This document shows positions 10,084 through 31,330 of a stretch of 64,000 nucleotides of DNA, piece by piece; positions within the stretch are counted from its first letter, which is position 1, and each line of letters opens with the position of its first letter. The stretch comes from Chelativorans sp. (GTDB lineage Bacteria; Pseudomonadota; Alphaproteobacteria; Rhizobiales; Rhizobiaceae). The stretch covers positions 1-64,000 of the forward strand of contig NZ_JAPSLH010000015.1 in assembly GCF_031180965.1 (NCBI RefSeq), read 5' to 3'. The position numbers and the translations under genes are program-made. The notes under the pieces were generated by a model that was given only the letters and a program-made list of their open reading frames with translations, did no database searches and was not told the origin of the DNA.

Positions 10084-11124
10084 TTATTCCTCCTCCTGGA
10101 AAAGGCTGATCTGCGCCTGAGAGAGCTCCTTCGGCGGGTTGAGACCGAGATGCTTCCACGCCTTGGCGGCAAGCACCCGGCCGCGCGGCGTGCGCTGGAT
10201 GAAGCCCTGCTGGATAAGATAGGGCTCGATGATGTCCTCGATGGCGTCGCGCGGCTCGGAAAGGGCCGCGGCGATGGTCTCGATTCCGACAGGCCCGCCG
10301 CCGAAATTTTCCACGATCATGCTGAGGTAGCGCCGGTCGAGCTGGTCGAGGCCGAGCGCATCCACTTCCAGTCGCAGGAGCGCGGCATCAGCGATTTCGC
10401 GTGTCACCTTCTCGGCGCCGGCCACCGACGCAAAATCGCGCACGCGGCGCAAGAGACGGCCGGCGATGCGCGGCGTCCCGCGCGCTCTCCGCGCGATCTC
10501 TTCCGCCCCGTCCTCGGTCAGCGGCAGGCCGAGAATGCGCGCGCCGCGCGTGACGATCGCCTTCAGCTCCTCGACCGTATAGAACTCGAGCCGGATCGGG
10601 ATTCCGAAGCGGTCGCGCAGCGGCGTGGTCAAGAGCCCAAGGCGGGTGGTAGCGGCGACCAGCGTGAATTTAGCGAGATCGATCTTCACCGAGCGGGCCG
10701 CCGGCCCCTCGCCGATGATGAGATCGAGCTGATAGTCCTCCATGGCGGGGTAGAGGATCTCCTCAACGGCCGGATTGAGCCGGTGGATCTCGTCGATGAA
10801 GAGCACGTCGCGCTCTTCCAGATTGGTGAGGAGGGCGGCGAGGTCGCCCGCTTTCGCGATGACCGGACCGGAGGTGGAGCGGAAATTGACGCCGAGCTCG
10901 CGCGCCATGATCTGCGCCAGCGTCGTCTTGCCGAGCCCGGGCGGGCCGACGAAGAGCACGTGGTCCAGCGCCTCGCCGCGCGCACGGGCGGCCTCGACGA
11001 AAACCTTCAGATTGGCGCGCGCGGTCTTCTGGCCGACGAACTCGTCCAGCGACTGCGGCCGCATCGTGGCATCGACATCCTCGCCGCGCTGGGCGGGGGA
11101 GATGATGCGGTCCGGATCGCTCAT
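10084..11124 (-). CDS. ruvB: Holliday junction branch migration helicase RuvB
   Basis: AAA+ motor that drives branch migration of Holliday junctions with RuvA. The 346-residue protein has Walker A GPPGLGKT at 60-67, a Walker B region ([10 protein letters not shown]), the sensor region and a C-terminal winged helix with the RTPRGR motif. Its ATG overlaps the stop of the upstream PIN toxin gene by four bases (ATGA at 11121-11124). It is separated from ruvA by a toxin-antitoxin pair, which is not the usual arrangement, and its translation may depend on that of the toxin gene. Confidence 0.97.
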
Positions 11125-11519
11125 GCGAGGAGCTCCATGCCGGGGACGCGAGAGGCCGCACGGCGATCAAAAGTGACAGTACGGGTGCAGCCCGCCGCAT
11201 TGGACGAACAGGAGATCAGGTGGTCGGCAATGTCCGAGGACGATGGGTCGCCTGTCGCCAGGATTTGTTCCAGCCGCTCGCCGTGCTCGAATTGGAACTC
11301 CGCGCTTGCCACCAGCTGTCGTAAGGCGTCGAGAATCGTGGACCGTGAATATCCGAAACGCCGCCGTAGAACCCAGAGCGTCTCAAGCAGCGCAACCGTG
11401 CTCACATAGGCTGGATCGTCGGAGTTTCGTTGAGCAAAGAAGCGGCGAACGGCATCAGTCTGGCCAGCATTGTCAGCAACGAGTAACCTGACCAGCACAT
11501 TGGTGTCGATGCCGATCAC
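11121..11519 (-). CDS. PIN-domain ribonuclease toxin (VapC-like)
   Basis: Predicted Mg-dependent RNase toxin of a type II toxin-antitoxin pair; VapC toxins cut specific RNAs, often initiator tRNA or rRNA loops (family knowledge; target here unknown). With the GTG start at 11519, which overlaps the antitoxin stop as GTGA, the protein is 132 residues. The acidic PIN residues are visible: D5 in GIDTNVLV, E46 in LLETLW, D96/D99 in SSSDIADH, and D118 in TFDRR. All appear intact, so the toxin looks functional. An ATG at 11537 is possible but would overlap the antitoxin by 22 bases. The gene ends inside the ruvB start codon. Confidence 0.88.
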
Positions 11520-11812
11520 TCGATCCCCTCGCGCCACTCGCGTATGATCCGTTCGTCCTCTTCCGCGGCTTGCTCCTCCGCAGCGTCTTGTATCGCGCGC
11601 TCCAATTCCTCGTCGCTCAAGCTGATGCCATTCGGCGGGGGACCGAGAATGCCGAACAGGTCGACCGCCCTGCGATTGCGTGGCCGCACCCAGGTCTTTC
11701 CGTTTTCCTCGACGAACTCGATGCGATCGCCAGGTTTCAATCCGTGCCGGTCACGGACCTCCTTGGGCACGGTGATCTGCCCCTTGGCAGTGATTTTCGC
11801 GAGCGCGCCCAT
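11516..11812 (-). CDS. AbrB/MazE/SpoVT-family antitoxin (VapB-like)
   Basis: Antitoxin partner of the adjacent PIN toxin. The 98-residue protein begins with a swapped-hairpin DNA-binding domain: AKITAKGQITVPKEVRDRHGLKPGDRIEF spans roughly residues 5-33, a close match to the AbrB-like fold. The C-terminal half is acidic (EEQAAEEDERI) and probably wraps the toxin. The 66-nt gap upstream to ruvA is full of TTAC/GTAA inverted repeats, consistent with autorepression. The stop overlaps the toxin GTG. Confidence 0.88.
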   Translation of the reverse strand: MGALAKITAKGQITVPKEVRDRHGLKPGDRIEFVEENGKTWVRPRNRRAVDLFGILGPPPNGISLSDEELERAIQDAAEEQAAEEDERIIREWREGIE

Positions 11813-11878: not shown

Positions 11879-12499
11879 CTACCGCGCCAGTTCCCTAAGC
11901 CCTAGGCGGATCAGCGTGCCGGCGTCGGCTCCTTCGCCCGCGGATTTCAGCGCCGCCGCCACGGCATTCGCCGCCACGTCGCGCGAATAGCCGAGATTGG
12001 CGAGAGCGGAGACGGCGTCGGCGACGGGCGCCGGCGCGACCCCCTCGCCAAGCTCCTGCTTGAGCCCGATCGTGCCGGTCGCTTCGCCGGCGAAGGCCGG
12101 CGCTTTGCTCTTCAATTCGGTGACGATGCGCTCGGCCACCTTCCTGCCGACGCCCGGCGCGCGCGCCACCATTGCGATGTCGCGAAGCGCGATGGCGTTC
12201 GCCAGTTCCGCCGGCGTGAGCGTGGAGAGCACGGCGAGCGCCACCTTGGCGCCCACGCCCTGCACATTGTTCTGCAGGAGCCGGAACCACTCGCGTTCGA
12301 GCGCGCTCTGAAAGCCATAGAGGCGGATCATGTCCTCGCGCACATAGGTCTCGATGAAGAGCGTGACCGGGCTCCCCACACTGCCGAGGGAGGAGAGCGT
12401 GCGCGAGGAGCAGTGGGCGACATATCCGACGCCGCCGATATCGATGATGCAGTGATCCTCGCCCACCTCGTCGAGGATGCCTTTCAGCTTGCCGATCAT
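11879..12499 (-). CDS. ruvA: Holliday junction branch migration protein RuvA
   Basis: Tetrameric junction-binding subunit that loads RuvB. The 206-residue protein opens with [12 protein letters not shown], an OB-fold domain, helix-hairpin-helix motifs including [15 protein letters not shown] near the middle, and a C-terminal RuvB-contact domain ending GLRELAR. The ATG overlaps the ruvC stop (ATGA at 12496-12499). Domain III is complete despite the toxin-antitoxin insertion 66 nt downstream. Confidence 0.96.
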
Positions 12500-13011
12500 G
12501 CGCGCGCTTCCAGGGCAAGGCGGGCGGTTACCGACTGCCGGTGGTGGGCGTGGCAGATGGCCACGGCGATCGCGTCGGCGGCATCGTCGCTGTCGAAGCG
12601 TGCCTTCGGCATCAGCACCTTCACCATCATGTGGATCTGCCGCTTCTCGCCATGGCCGACGCCGATGACCGCCTTCTTCACCGCGTTCGGAGCGTATTCG
12701 GCGACAGGAAGCCCCGCGCGCGCCGGCACGAGCATCGCGATGCCGCGCGCCTGGCCGAGCTTGAGGGTGGCGACGGCGTCCTTGTTGACGAAGGTGGCCT
12801 CGACGGCCGCCTCGTGAGGCATGTGCTGGTGCAGGATATCGGAAAGGCCGTCGTGGAGCTGGCACAGGCGCGAGGCGAGATCGGCCTTCTCGTCGGACCG
12901 GACCGTGCCGGCGCCGACGAAACGCAGGGAATTGCCGAGCGAATCGAGGACGGCCCAACCGGTGCGCCTCAGCCCCGGGTCGATGCCGATGATGCGAATC
13001 GCGCCTGTCAT
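12496..13011 (-). CDS. ruvC: Crossover junction endodeoxyribonuclease RuvC
   Basis: Resolves Holliday junctions by symmetric nicking. From the ATG at 13011 the protein is 171 residues with the RNase H-like start [16 protein letters not shown] (first catalytic Asp), a central acidic residue in [12 protein letters not shown], and the C-terminal [16 protein letters not shown] with catalytic Asp/His region. An upstream in-frame start at 13155 would add 48 residues with no family counterpart. First gene of ruvC-ruvA-[TA]-ruvB. Confidence 0.96.
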
Positions 13012-13120
13012 GGCCCCACCATAGCCCGCGCGAGGTCTATTGCCATCCGGCAAGTCAGAGCGGAGGAAGACAGTGCCGGACAGCGGACGCGTGCGCCGCA
13101 AGCGAAAGGACACTGCTGCG

Positions 13121-13330
13121 CGCCTTTTGGAGGGACCGCGGGTGATGCTCGGCATCGCCGCAGCGCCTGCGTATTTCGTGGGGTTGCTTGCCGGATCGGC
13201 GCTCTACGGCATCTCAAGCGATACGGTCTACCGCCGCATTACCTTCATGCTCGTCATCGCCTCGGCGATCATCGCCCTGCCGGTGACCGGCGATGCCATA
13301 GTCACATTCCTTGCGGCTGCCGAACGCTGA
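13121..13330 (+). pseudogene. C-terminal remnant of a TSUP (TauE/SafE) permease
   Basis: The plus-strand frame ending at 13330 encodes about 70 residues that look like the last two membrane segments of a TSUP-family permease: a segment beginning [20 protein letters not shown], the loop SSDTVYRR, then TFMLVIASAIIALPV. The N-terminal three quarters are missing and the sequence upstream is ruvC and its leader. No ribosome site or normal start is seen. I read it as a decayed gene fragment. A full-length TSUP gene occurs at 15870-16643, but the two do not look like direct duplicates. Confidence 0.55.
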
Positions 13331-13332
13331 GC

Positions 13333-13860
13333 TCAGCCGCGCCCGAACGCCGTCTGCAGAAGCGTGATCTGATCGGAAACCGGATTGGTGAGGAACGGCT
13401 CGGCCGGCTGGGCCTTGGGCGAGCCGTAAATCTCCTCGTCCATACGGCGCACCAGGGCTTCGAGCCGCAAAGAGCGGCGGACCAGGCTGCGGAAGGCCTC
13501 CGGCAGCTCGCTCCAGCCGGGCGCCTCCTCCTGGAGCGAGGCGGTGTCGAGCCGCACCTTGGCCTTTTCGGAGGCGACCTGCTCGCGCGTCATCTCGCCG
13601 GAATTTGCAGCCCGCTGCAGCAGCAGCCAGGAGGCAAGCTGCATCAGCCGGGTGGTGAGCCGCATGGATTCGGCCGCGTAGAGGCCGGCAGCGGTGCGCG
13701 ACAGGGTCTTGGCGGTGGCGCGGCCCTCGCCGTCCAGATATTCGGCCGCCTCCTCGACAAGGCCCATGCCTTCGTCATAGAGGGGCTTGAAAGATTGGGA
13801 GAAAACCCGTCTTTCCGCCAGCTTGATCATGTTCGCGCCGCCCATACTGCCGGTGATCAT
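13333..13860 (-). CDS. rcdA: RcdA-like regulator of CtrA degradation (DUF1465)
   Basis: DUF1465 protein; the Caulobacter member RcdA is an adaptor that helps ClpXP degrade the cell-cycle regulator CtrA (established for that organism). The 175-residue product has the family segment FSQSFKPLYDEGMGLVEEAA, then a helical AAESMRLTTRLMQLASWLLL and a C-terminal Arg/Glu-rich helix (RRMDEEIYG). In-frame ATGs lie at 13860, 13845 and 13830; 13860 is chosen because AGGA precedes it, but this is uncertain. Two CtrA-type boxes lie upstream, which would close a feedback loop. Confidence 0.82.
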   Translation of the reverse strand: MITGSMGGANMIKLAERRVFSQSFKPLYDEGMGLVEEAAEYLDGEGRATAKTLSRTAAGLYAAESMRLTTRLMQLASWLLLQRAANSGEMTREQVASEKAKVRLDTASLQEEAPGWSELPEAFRSLVRRSLRLEALVRRMDEEIYGSPKAQPAEPFLTNPVSDQITLLQTAFGRG

Positions 13861-13967
13861 TCCTGTCCGCCCCAATATACTTACACGGCGCCAGCCAGCG
13901 GCGCCCGCTTCCCAATGACTTTTGCCGTGGAAAATGCTTCGGGCCGGGGCCAAACGCAAGCCCCTGC

Positions 13968-13983
13968 TTAATGAAGAGTTAAC
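13968..13983 (-). promoter_or_regulatory. CtrA-type binding box 1, upstream of rcdA
   Basis: The sequence TTAA-TGAAGAG-TTAAC is an exact match to the full CtrA consensus TTAA-N7-TTAAC. It lies about 108 nt upstream of the rcdA start used here. In Caulobacter rcdA belongs to the CtrA regulon (known); that this site is used here is inferred. Confidence 0.65.
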
Positions 13984-13998
13984 AGGAAAATTCAGGCC

Positions 13999-14025
13999 AA
14001 AAAAAGAGCCGCGGGTCGGCGGCTC
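13999..14025 (-). terminator. Intrinsic terminator on the minus strand upstream of rcdA
   Basis: A 7-bp GC-rich stem (14006-14012 with 14019-14025) is followed, on the minus strand, by seven T residues (14005-13999). It lies about 155-180 nt beyond the stop of the acyl-CoA ligase gene and upstream of rcdA. It could end the ligase transcript or a separate small RNA. Confidence 0.75.
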
Positions 14026-14112
14026 TCAGGAGTTAACAGGGAGGCGTCAAACAGAATGGCCCAGCCACTCAGTCAGAATCCAGATCACTGGATGCCGAAA
14101 GTAAACGCCCGT
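13999..14112 (-). ncRNA. Possible small RNA ending at the terminator upstream of rcdA
   Basis: On the minus strand, downstream of CtrA-type box 2, a compact element is visible: a perfect 6-bp hairpin with a 4-nt loop (14078-14093), an unpaired stretch, a CCTCCC word complementary to ribosome-binding sites near 14040, then the strong terminator. This layout resembles rhizobial trans-acting sRNAs, but the 5' end is a guess and no clear -10/-35 pair is seen. It may instead be the ligase gene's 3' UTR. Confidence 0.3.
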
Positions 14113-14117
14113 AAGGC

Positions 14118-14133
14118 TTAATGACTGGTTAAC
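14118..14133 (-). promoter_or_regulatory. CtrA-type binding box 2
   Basis: TTAA-TGACTGG-TTAAC, a second exact match to TTAA-N7-TTAAC, 150 nt from box 1 and sharing the longer word GCTTAATGA with it. It is upstream of the possible small RNA and its terminator, and 45 nt beyond the ligase stop. Confidence 0.6.
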
Positions 14134-14178
14134 GGTTTGCACAATCTTCGCAAAAAATTTCCCTAAAATGCATTTTCC

Positions 14179-15822
14179 CTAGAGCGTGCGCGCGATCTCC
14201 CGCAGCCGGAACTTCTGGATCTTGCCGGTGGACGTCTTGGGGATTTCGACGAAGACGACGTGCCGCGGACACTTGAAGGCGGCAAGGAGCCGGCGGCAGT
14301 GAGCGATCATCTCCTCCGCCGTCGCCTGCGTCCCCGGCTTCAGCTCCACGAAGGCGACCGGCGTCTCGCCCCACTTCTCATCGGGGCGGGCGACGACGCC
14401 GCAGAAGGCCACCGCCGGGTGCTTGTAGAGCGCCTCCTCCACCTCAATGGAGGAAATGTTCTCGCCGCCGGAGATGATGATGTCCTTGGAGCGGTCCTTG
14501 AGTTGGATGTAACCATCGGGATGGAGCACGCCGAGGTCGCCCGAGTGGAACCAGCCCCCGGCGAAGGCTTCCTCCGTCGCGTGCTTGTTCTTCAGATAGC
14601 CCTTCATGACGATGTTGCCGCGGAACATGACTTCGCCCAGCGTCTCGCCGTCGGCGGGAACGGGCCGCATCGTCTTTGGGTCCATCACGGTCAGCCCTTC
14701 GAGCGTGGCGTAGCGCACGCCCTGCCGCGCCTTCCGCGCCGCCCGGCCGGCGCCGTCGAAGCGGTCCCATTCCATCTTCCATTCGTTCACAACGGCCGGA
14801 CCGTAGGTTTCGGTGAGGCCGTAAAGGTGGGTGACGGCGAACCCCGCCTCAGCCATGGCGGAAAGCACCGATTCGGGCGGGGGCGCAGCGGCGGTGCTGA
14901 AATTCACCGTCTGCGGGAACGAGCGCTTCTGGTCCGCGGCGGCGGAGAGCAGGGTCGACATGACGATGGGCGCGCCGCACAGATGCGTCACGCCATGATC
15001 GGCGATCGCATCATACATGGCCTTTGCCCGCACCCAGCGCAGGCATACATGCGTGCCTGCTTGCAGCGCCAGCGTCCAGGGAAAGCACCAGCCGTTGCAG
15101 TGGAACATCGGCAAGGTCCACAGATAGACCGGGTGCCGGCCCATACCGGCGTGGACCGTGTTGGCGTAAGCCATCAGCGCCGCGCCGCGGTGATGGCAGA
15201 CCACGCCTTTCGGATTGCCCGTGGTGCCGGACGTATAGTTGAGCGAGATCGCATCCCATTCGTCGTCGGGCACCGCCCAGGCGAAGCTTGGATCGCCGGA
15301 GGCGACGAACTCCTCATAGTCGATCACGCCGATGCGCTCGCCCTTTGCATAGGGCGCGTCCTCGGGATATTCCGCATCGTCGAAATCGACGACCAGCGGC
15401 TTCACTTTCGCTCGGGCAAGCGCATCCTTCATCACGCCTGAAAATTCGCGGTCGACAATGACGAGCTTGCTGTCGGCGTGGTCGAGCTGAAAGGCGATCA
15501 CCGCCGCATCGAGCCGCGTGTTGAGCGAGTGGAGCACGGCCTTCACCATCGGCACGCCGTGATGGGCCTCCAGCATCGGGGGCGTGTTGGAGAGCATCAC
15601 GGAAACCGTGTCGCCCTTGCCGATGCCGTGCCTGGCCAGCGCCGAGGCGAGCCGGACTGAACGGTCCCAGAACTCGCGATAGCTGCGCCTCAGCCCGCCA
15701 TGGATGATGGCCGTGTGATCGGGAAAGACCTTCGCGGCGCGCTCGAGCAGCGTCAGCGGCGTCAGCGGCTGGTAATTGGCCGGGTTCTTATCGAGGTTCT
15801 GCTCGTAGGGATTGTCGCTCAC
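14179..15822 (-). CDS. AMP-forming acyl-CoA synthetase
   Basis: Activates a carboxylic acid to its CoA thioester through an acyl-adenylate. The 547-residue protein has the P-loop-like YTSGTTGNPKG, the A5/A7 motifs (YGLTETYGP; WFHSGDLGVLHPDGY), and the C-terminal catalytic lysine motif KTSTGKIQKF. The opening YEQNLDKNPANYQPLTPL and overall pattern match the medium-chain/AlkK-like group that also contains methylmercaptopropionate-CoA ligases (DmdB), so the substrate cannot be named. It is a single gene with a TSUP permease gene 48 nt upstream on the same strand. Confidence 0.9.
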   Translation of the reverse strand: MSDNPYEQNLDKNPANYQPLTPLTLLERAAKVFPDHTAIIHGGLRRSYREFWDRSVRLASALARHGIGKGDTVSVMLSNTPPMLEAHHGVPMVKAVLHSLNTRLDAAVIAFQLDHADSKLVIVDREFSGVMKDALARAKVKPLVVDFDDAEYPEDAPYAKGERIGVIDYEEFVASGDPSFAWAVPDDEWDAISLNYTSGTTGNPKGVVCHHRGAALMAYANTVHAGMGRHPVYLWTLPMFHCNGWCFPWTLALQAGTHVCLRWVRAKAMYDAIADHGVTHLCGAPIVMSTLLSAAADQKRSFPQTVNFSTAAAPPPESVLSAMAEAGFAVTHLYGLTETYGPAVVNEWKMEWDRFDGAGRAARKARQGVRYATLEGLTVMDPKTMRPVPADGETLGEVMFRGNIVMKGYLKNKHATEEAFAGGWFHSGDLGVLHPDGYIQLKDRSKDIIISGGENISSIEVEEALYKHPAVAFCGVVARPDEKWGETPVAFVELKPGTQATAEEMIAHCRRLLAAFKCPRHVVFVEIPKTSTGKIQKFRLREIARTL

Positions 15823-31171: not shown

Positions 31172-31330
31172 GCGGCGATCCACGACAACCGATGGAATTG
31201 CGATCCCGGGAACCTACAAAGTAGGTGGGCGCCGTGTGGCCAAGCCCACAGGCAAGGCCAGGGACAGCTCCCTTCAGGATCGTTAAGGCCCCGGGGAAAA
31301 TGATTCCTGTCGCGAGGCGCAGATCGCCTC
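31172..31330 (-). ncRNA. ssrS: 6S RNA (ssrS), RNA polymerase regulator
   Basis: About 160-nt RNA that mimics an open promoter and binds the housekeeping RNA polymerase. Visible marks: a terminal stem GGCGATC/GATCGCC pairing 31322-31328 with 31174-31180; the 5' side of the bubble with CCCCGGGGCCTTAACGATCC; and the 3'-side small hairpin CCTAC-TTT-GTAGG followed by TTCCCGGGATCG, a typical alphaproteobacterial 6S element. It is directly upstream of 5-formyl-THF cyclo-ligase, as in most bacteria. The ends are estimated from the stem and promoter spacing. Confidence 0.82.

Follow-up and report, generated by a model that had tools for sequence, protein, structure and literature searches.

Gene organization of the rcdA locus

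The window (the whole stretch of Chelativorans sp. DNA that was analysed, 64,000 nt) carries an rcdA gene on the minus strand. The gene had been named rcdA in the original prediction, and this was confirmed by a match of 209.7 bits to the NCBIfam RcdA equivalog NF051867 (cut-off 170) together with Pfam DUF1465. Upstream of it, TTAA-N7-TTAAC occurs at 13968-13983 (box 1) and 14118-14133 (box 2), 150 nt apart. The plus strand carries the consensus in the form that ends in C; rcdA and the sRNA gene described below are on the minus strand. Both boxes are exact, as had been predicted, and they are the sole pair in the window: TTAA-N7-TTAAC and TTAA-N7-TTAA were absent from the rest of the 64 kb, and 100 shuffles of the window gave means of 0.01 and 0.00, respectively. 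The region had also been described as one where no protein gene lies. This is correct for protein, but an RNA gene, BjrC1505, is present. The features of the locus are as follows:

13333..13860, minus strand: rcdA, adaptor for CtrA proteolysis (DUF1465; PF07323, E=3.1e-54; NCBIfam NF051867 RcdA equivalog)
13932..13937, minus strand: putative -10 of rcdA (GCATTT), proposed from the family profile
13954..13959, minus strand: putative -35 of rcdA (TTGCGT), proposed from the family profile
13968..13983, minus strand: box 1 (minus-strand GTTAACTCTTCATTAA), exact; CtrA-type box of the rcdA promoter, predicted to lie upstream of the -35
13999..14094, minus strand: sRNA gene of the BjrC1505 family, about 96 nt (RF02356 73.6 bits; R1 84.7 bits; fold z-score -3.75; 5′ end predicted)
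14004..14027, minus strand: intrinsic terminator of the sRNA (9-pair stem; conserved 3′ helix)
14039..14044, minus strand: CCUCCC loop within TTTGACGCCTCCCTG, resembling an anti-Shine-Dalgarno sequence (present in all 30 sRNAs chosen for alignment)
14078..14093, minus strand: hairpin 1 of the sRNA (ATCCAG...CTGGAT), from alignment and fold
14100..14105, minus strand: putative -10 of the sRNA (TTTACT), an A/T-rich element
14118..14133, minus strand: box 2 (minus-strand GTTAACCAGTCATTAA), exact; CtrA-type box of the sRNA promoter, predicted at about -38 to -24
14179..15822, minus strand: acyl-CoA synthetase gene, upstream neighbour, same strand as rcdA

Elsewhere in the window, a 96-aa open frame on the plus strand (13040-13330), between ruvC and rcdA, had no Pfam match. 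A VapBC-like pair, made up of a PIN-domain gene and a MazE/AbrB-type antitoxin gene (11121-11812, minus strand), separates ruvA (11879-12493) from ruvB (10084-11124), breaking the usual ruvAB pair. A 6S RNA (Rfam RF00013, 82.4 bits) was found at 31173-31328 on the minus strand.

A BjrC1505-family sRNA gene lies between the boxes

The Rfam BjrC1505 model (RF02356) matched 14139-13999 on the minus strand over model positions 1-140, and the score of 73.6 bits exceeded the gathering threshold of 50, placing the RNA in this family. The own genome has one copy. Positions 1 to 40-45 of RF02356, which are drawn as paired, coincide with the CtrA box and the promoter spacer; the 5′ end of the model probably describes promoter DNA rather than RNA. 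R1, a model of the sRNA body only, was trained on 30 sRNAs, including that of the window and one same-family sequence (L093), and gave 84.7 bits for the window sRNA, which is itself one of the 30 training rows.

The consensus fold consists of four helices: two 5′ hairpins, a mini-hairpin with the CCUCCC loop, and the terminator. Two-sided changes were present at 15 of the 25 consensus pairs (30 sequences, found with the Rfam model), as expected for a conserved RNA structure; the covariation term of the fold was small (-0.99 kcal/mol). None of 200 shuffles of the window's 96-nt RNA folded as well as the RNA itself (z -3.75). In its minimum-energy fold, CCUCCC is single-stranded and the consensus mini-hairpin is not formed; the six CCUCCC bases are unpaired in both predictions. 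GACGCCTCCCTG was intact in 136 of the 150 listed sRNA loci, and GCCTCCC in 140. In two loci from the window's own family (L170 and L171), the core TTTTTCTCCCTG replaces TTTGACGCCTCCCTG and both CtrA boxes are exact; the pairing region of the sRNA seems to have changed in this lineage.

A terminator had been predicted between the boxes. The stem is there (14027-14004, minus strand), but it forms the sRNA's own 3′ end. Terminator-like sites in the 2 kb scanned numbered 3 vs 1.6 expected.

Box 2 is conserved with the sRNA

Among 199 genomes of the order, BjrC1505 was matched in 166 at E<=0.001, with 139 above the cut-off, and rcdA was found in 179. The locus analysis covered the 150 matches listed, the window included, and left out weaker matches. 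Of 147 loci, again with the window included, 139 had a box matching at least 7/8 at the 5′ end of the sRNA and 59 had an exact one, where 17.8 and 1.5 were expected; the other 3 of the 150 loci were set aside for contig ends or Ns. Boxes were at background level in control stretches taken from DNA farther upstream, from the sRNA itself, and from rcdA.

Because the Rfam model includes the box columns, box counts based on its hits are biased, and box-blind tests were therefore run. The first used a 20-mer inside the sRNA core, which found 120 stretches in named genomes; the 80 listed were used, and 77 of the 80 had enough DNA. A box of at least 7/8 was found in 76 of these 77 loci (7.9 expected), exact in 30 (0.5 expected), and in 69 of the 76 its first base fell at -71 to -77 relative to the 20-mer. 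In three stretches used as controls, which are richer in G+C and hence weaker for that purpose, a box was found in 1/74, 1/72, and 0/74 loci. rcdA followed the sRNA in 73 of the 80 loci; of the remaining seven, five had at most 312 nt downstream, one 1138 nt, and one 2422 nt. Some of the 20-mer genomes are probably shared with the order sample. Among the 80 named loci, Mesorhizobium sp. L-8-3, a Bosea MAG, a Rhizobiales isolate, and Phyllobacterium were included in the best BLASTN matches, which makes Rhizobiaceae in the broad sense the probable family of the window.

For the second test, 21 loci were fetched by rcdA (L151-L171). At E<0.01, R1 detected the sRNA in 18 of these, with weak hits in four, and a box of at least 7/8 accompanied it in 16 loci. 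When the own-family genomes were examined with rcdA and R1, box 2 matched at least 7/8 in 51 of 53 loci (4.2 expected) and was exact in 36 (0.2 expected). Judged by these counts, box 2, not box 1, is the box conserved across the order and beyond.

Box 1 is conserved upstream of rcdA in the window's own family

The own-family sample comprised 61 genomes, one per genus, in which rcdA alone was sought; it was found in 59. R1 located the sRNA upstream of rcdA in 54 of the 59 loci, or 53 without the window. Across these 53, box 1 was exact in 39 (0.2 expected) and matched at least 7/8 in 43 (3.8 expected). Both boxes were exact in 29 loci and matched at least 7/8 in 41, a result that bears out the conservation in relatives that had been suggested as a check and fits the proposal of two control points parted by a terminator. 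The five rcdA loci without an R1 hit had an exact rcdA-proximal box in three cases and none in two. Box-to-box spacing in own-family loci with exact box 1 was 148-294 nt, with 150 nt in the window.

In the order sample of 136 loci, the window included, 8 had an exact box in the stretch from sRNA to rcdA, against 0.6 expected, and 32 had one matching at least 7/8, against 7.8 expected. The window's own family, with the window among them, accounts for four of the exact cases. From these figures, box 1 is a conserved element upstream of rcdA in the window's own family and seldom exact elsewhere. The original prediction suggested CtrA control of rcdA through both boxes. As a prediction, CtrA control of rcdA is supported: box 1 is conserved in the own family, and such control is predicted for Rhizobiales in the available text of PMC2877005. 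The assignment of both boxes to rcdA is not supported; box 2 and the terminator belong to the BjrC1505 sRNA gene, which the original prediction had not recognized.

A CcrM-type GAATC site had also been pointed out between the boxes. The site exists at 14076 (1 site in 134 nt vs 0.18 expected), but its significance is weak. GANTC was present in 6 of the 30 aligned sRNAs and in 18 of the 29 own-family loci with two exact boxes; its density in these 29 loci was 4.5 per kb vs 2.9 per kb for all 600-nt upstream stretches. As the excess is mild, the site was dropped as a meaningful element.

The two predicted promoters differ in geometry

A profile of the sRNA promoter from 129 order loci anchored on the box read GTTAACC-N5-(G/A)TTAA(G/C)CTTT, followed by an A/T-rich element at about +26 to +32 from the first base of the box and then by hairpin 1. 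The A/T-rich element was weak in the 129 order loci and clearer in 50 family loci. On this profile, box 2 would lie at about -38 to -24 and overlap the -35 region of the sRNA promoter. The start would fall at about 14094, and the RNA would therefore be about 96 nt long. The box-to-start spacing presumably fits that of activated CtrA promoters.

The rcdA promoter appears to be arranged otherwise. In the 39 family loci with exact box 1, CTTGC at +22 to +26 of the box was 89-100% conserved, and C and A at +46/+47 were each 94% conserved; these positions suggest that box 1 lies upstream of the rcdA -35. Since the box-to-promoter geometry differs, the sRNA and rcdA promoters would differ in architecture. 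The -10 elements are weak candidates, and no sigma-70-type promoter was called in 13000-15000.

The sRNA and its box occur with and without rcdA

In 139 of the 150 listed sRNA loci, rcdA lay downstream in the same orientation, and the distance from the sRNA end to the RcdA domain start had a median of 204 nt (range 134-1202). The other 11 loci comprised two second copies, six in genomes without an rcdA match, and three with an rcdA match outside the examined stretch. Overall, 7 of the 199 genomes had the sRNA and no rcdA match, and a box of at least 7/8 was present in all six that were examined. The second copies away from rcdA were L132, with a 7/8 box, and L124, without a box.

Across the class, the Rfam BjrC1505 model matched in 30 of 289 genomes, three of them in the window's order, and found nothing in 14 control genomes, Caulobacter vibrioides among them. 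R1 had hits in 39 of the 289 class genomes searched; three of these are in the order, which leaves 36 outside it, and 27 loci from those 36 were examined. The core was placed by script in 22 of these, 15 of which had a box of at least 7/8, 73-93 nt upstream of the core; in the five loci where the script did not place the core, a box was seen by eye in four. Ten boxed sRNA loci outside the order had no same-strand rcdA in the examined stretch, one being cut by a contig end. Because boxed sRNAs persist without rcdA, the link between CtrA box and sRNA is wider than that between sRNA and rcdA; the sRNA is not merely an rcdA leader, since sRNA and box persist where rcdA is absent.

Six weak R1 hits outside the order (L402, L406, L407, L408, L410, and L411) were rejected as BjrC1505; they are without the full core and look like other RNAs. 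Their cores, in L402, L406, and L411 and in L407, L408, and L410, are TTTCCTCCCTAAACT or GAAGCCTCCCTG, with no CtrA box. The two sets are perhaps other CCUCCC-type sRNA families.

TTAA-N7-TTAAC as a CtrA motif in the own genome

The own genome (4.37 Mb) contained 17 TTAA-N7-TTAAC matches, which were merged to 12 distinct places by joining overlapping palindromic pairs; the reversed-pattern control gave 7. Over the whole genome, the excess of exact boxes above the control is modest. The rcdA locus holds 2 of the 12 places. Neighbouring ORFs of the other 10 were read, and eight proteins were scanned. No Pfam family was found for two of them; the set included MinC, FtsE (equivalog), a protein with a pilus N-terminal region, a polysaccharide export protein, and two outer-membrane barrels. 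Genes such as minC, ftsE, and those for pili and polysaccharide export are of the type under CtrA control. Because the neighbours of the other boxes resemble the CtrA regulon, TTAA-N7-TTAAC is credible as a CtrA motif in this genome.

A CtrA orthologue was present in all 30 genomes chosen, and that of the own genome had 83% identity over residues 1-226 of the query. The sRNA locus thus combines a conserved promoter TTAA-N7-TTAA(C) site with a CtrA encoded in the genome, as a member of the CtrA regulon should. Autoregulation of ctrA is expected; of 30 genomes, one had an exact TTAA-N7-TTAA within 500 nt of ctrA, and 27 had a 7/8 site. Since the exact site is found at ctrA in one genome only, the TTAA-N7-TTAA consensus misses some CtrA sites.

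Possible targets of the sRNA

The natural reading of these features is that the sRNA would be a trans-acting, anti-Shine-Dalgarno RNA in the CtrA regulon. The sRNA seed was checked against the 5′ regions of 30 ctrA loci and of 27 among 30 gcrA loci, and no evident extended match was found. This comparison had no control set, and in the gcrA set three starts were unplaced and several others were chosen by a loose pattern. In most ctrA leaders, the ribosome site is conserved and of the AGGGGA type. ctrA and gcrA are not supported as predicted targets of the sRNA. Of 18 genomes searched for ACAGGGAGGC-N1-12-ATG, 14 contained the pattern, with 32 matches in all against 4 for the reversed control. 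No recurring target gene was found among the 30 pattern loci examined, one of which was the antisense strand of the window's own sRNA.

Discussion

We propose, with a probability of roughly 0.78, that two CtrA-dependent units follow one another on the minus strand at this locus, the first being a trans-acting sRNA with a CCUCCC loop and the second rcdA. CtrA would bind box 2 over the -35 region and drive the ~96-nt BjrC1505 sRNA, whose transcript would stop at its own terminator. CtrA would also bind box 1, immediately before the rcdA -35, and drive rcdA; RcdA would then hand CtrA to ClpXP. Such delivery of CtrA to ClpXP by RcdA is established for Caulobacter. CtrA would thereby start its own proteolytic brake and a riboregulator at once, and the CCUCCC loop of the sRNA would probably pair with the Shine-Dalgarno region of target mRNAs, lowering translation while CtrA is active. 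We infer CtrA binding, activation rather than repression, the start sites, and the anti-Shine-Dalgarno mode from sequence.

A different arrangement would have both boxes control rcdA, with the BjrC1505 stretch as a cis-acting leader that carries a conditional terminator (attenuator) and gives no independent sRNA. The adjacency and common orientation of sRNA and rcdA in 139 of 150 loci agree with such a leader, as does the lack of a box at L124, a second copy away from rcdA. Outside the own family, moreover, most rcdA genes have no exact proximal box (8 exact and 32 at least 7/8 among 136 in the order sample), and read-through from box 2 could feed rcdA there. However, the sRNA occurs in 7 of 199 genomes that have no rcdA match, with a box of at least 7/8 in all six fetched. 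The ten boxed loci outside the order, one cut by a contig end, likewise have no same-strand rcdA, the second copy L132 retains its 7/8 box, and own-family rcdA has its own conserved box past the terminator. These observations make an attenuator quite unlikely.

CtrA might instead act as a repressor, or some other regulator might use the TTAA-rich site, so that sRNA and rcdA would be expressed when CtrA is absent. The position of box 2 over the predicted -35 is compatible with repression, the sign of control is not readable from sequence, and Hyphomonas CtrA does not regulate rcdA according to the available text of PMC7200025. Activation is nevertheless favoured by the presence of two conserved boxes whose geometry differs between the two promoters, and CcnA offers a precedent for an sRNA under positive CtrA control (PMC8959179, available text); we regard repression or a foreign regulator as unlikely. 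Boxes that arose by chance or as ordinary A/T-rich promoter sequence, with no role for CtrA, might be suspected because exact sites in the whole genome exceed the reversed control by a modest margin and because A/T-rich intergenic DNA yields 7/8 matches fairly often (17.8 expected in 147 loci). Such an origin is highly improbable and is disfavoured by the box counts: exact boxes were found in 59 of 147 loci (1.5 expected) and 30 of 77 (0.5 expected), and exact box 1 in 39 of 53 (0.2 expected). The spacing of box 2 is also nearly fixed, and the order-sample control stretches were at background.

Cuckoo RNAs are anti-Shine-Dalgarno hairpin RNAs of alphaproteobacteria with a family-specific motif and hairpin layout; the CCUCCC loop of the window sRNA is a resemblance only. 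BjrC1505 reportedly comes from a set of Bradyrhizobium and Rhodopseudomonas sRNAs described by Madhugiri et al. 2012. That work is cited as a reference in the available text of PMC7143759, PMC4842269, and PMC5082802, and BjrC1505 itself appeared in the literature searched as a list mention only. The window sRNA has the same hairpins, CCUCCC core, and terminator, but the Rfam model counts box and spacer as RNA, whereas our profile puts the start after them. In the accessible literature, which included no bioRxiv and few subscription papers, we found nothing tying BjrC1505 to CtrA or to rcdA, nor any sRNA at rcdA to CtrA.

CcnA of Caulobacter crescentus is 182 nt long and lies at the origin of replication (PMC8959179, available text), whereas the window sRNA is about 96 nt and lies beside rcdA. 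Judged by its nearest genes (ruvB, ruvA, ruvC, rcdA, and the acyl-CoA synthetase gene), the window sRNA does not appear to lie at the origin, and by the same neighbours it is not at rpmG, pleD, or divK. The latter genes mark the position of EcpR1 of Sinorhizobium meliloti, which is ppGpp-controlled; GspR is confined to Sinorhizobium. Both are, as we propose for the window sRNA, cell-cycle-linked trans-sRNAs, and they come from the same order, but CtrA-driven expression is reported for neither in the available text of PMC4414408 and PMC5928217, the sources for both RNAs. PmaR was dropped as a counterpart: in the available text of PMC6234868, it has a C-rich loop and is confined to Agrobacterium and a related strain.

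A CtrA site upstream of rcdA was predicted in Rhizobiales by Brilli et al. 2010 (PMC2877005) and Schluter et al. 2013 (PMC3616915), and box 1 agrees with it. As far as their available text goes, these surveys scanned upstream of protein genes; where box 1 is missing, the published rcdA CtrA site may be the sRNA's box. Agrobacterial TSS maps give several start sites for rcdA orthologues, with candidate CtrA sites upstream (PMC10469942, available text), as two promoters would give.

More tentatively, and as a possibility that we would not yet favour, BjrC1505 could be the CtrA-driven cell-cycle sRNA general to Hyphomicrobiales and some neighbouring orders, matching CcnA in function, and it could have been in the CtrA regulon before its coupling to rcdA. 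Where the two are coupled, CtrA would fire proteolytic (RcdA) and translational (anti-Shine-Dalgarno sRNA) feedback from one locus.

Under the two-unit arrangement proposed here, an sRNA so far known chiefly from its Rfam entry acquires a likely regulator and a probable start site, and it is placed in the context of the cell cycle across an order with major plant symbionts. The riboregulatory branch that it would add to the CtrA circuit can be tested directly. CtrA-site surveys limited to protein genes may have credited the box of the sRNA to rcdA.
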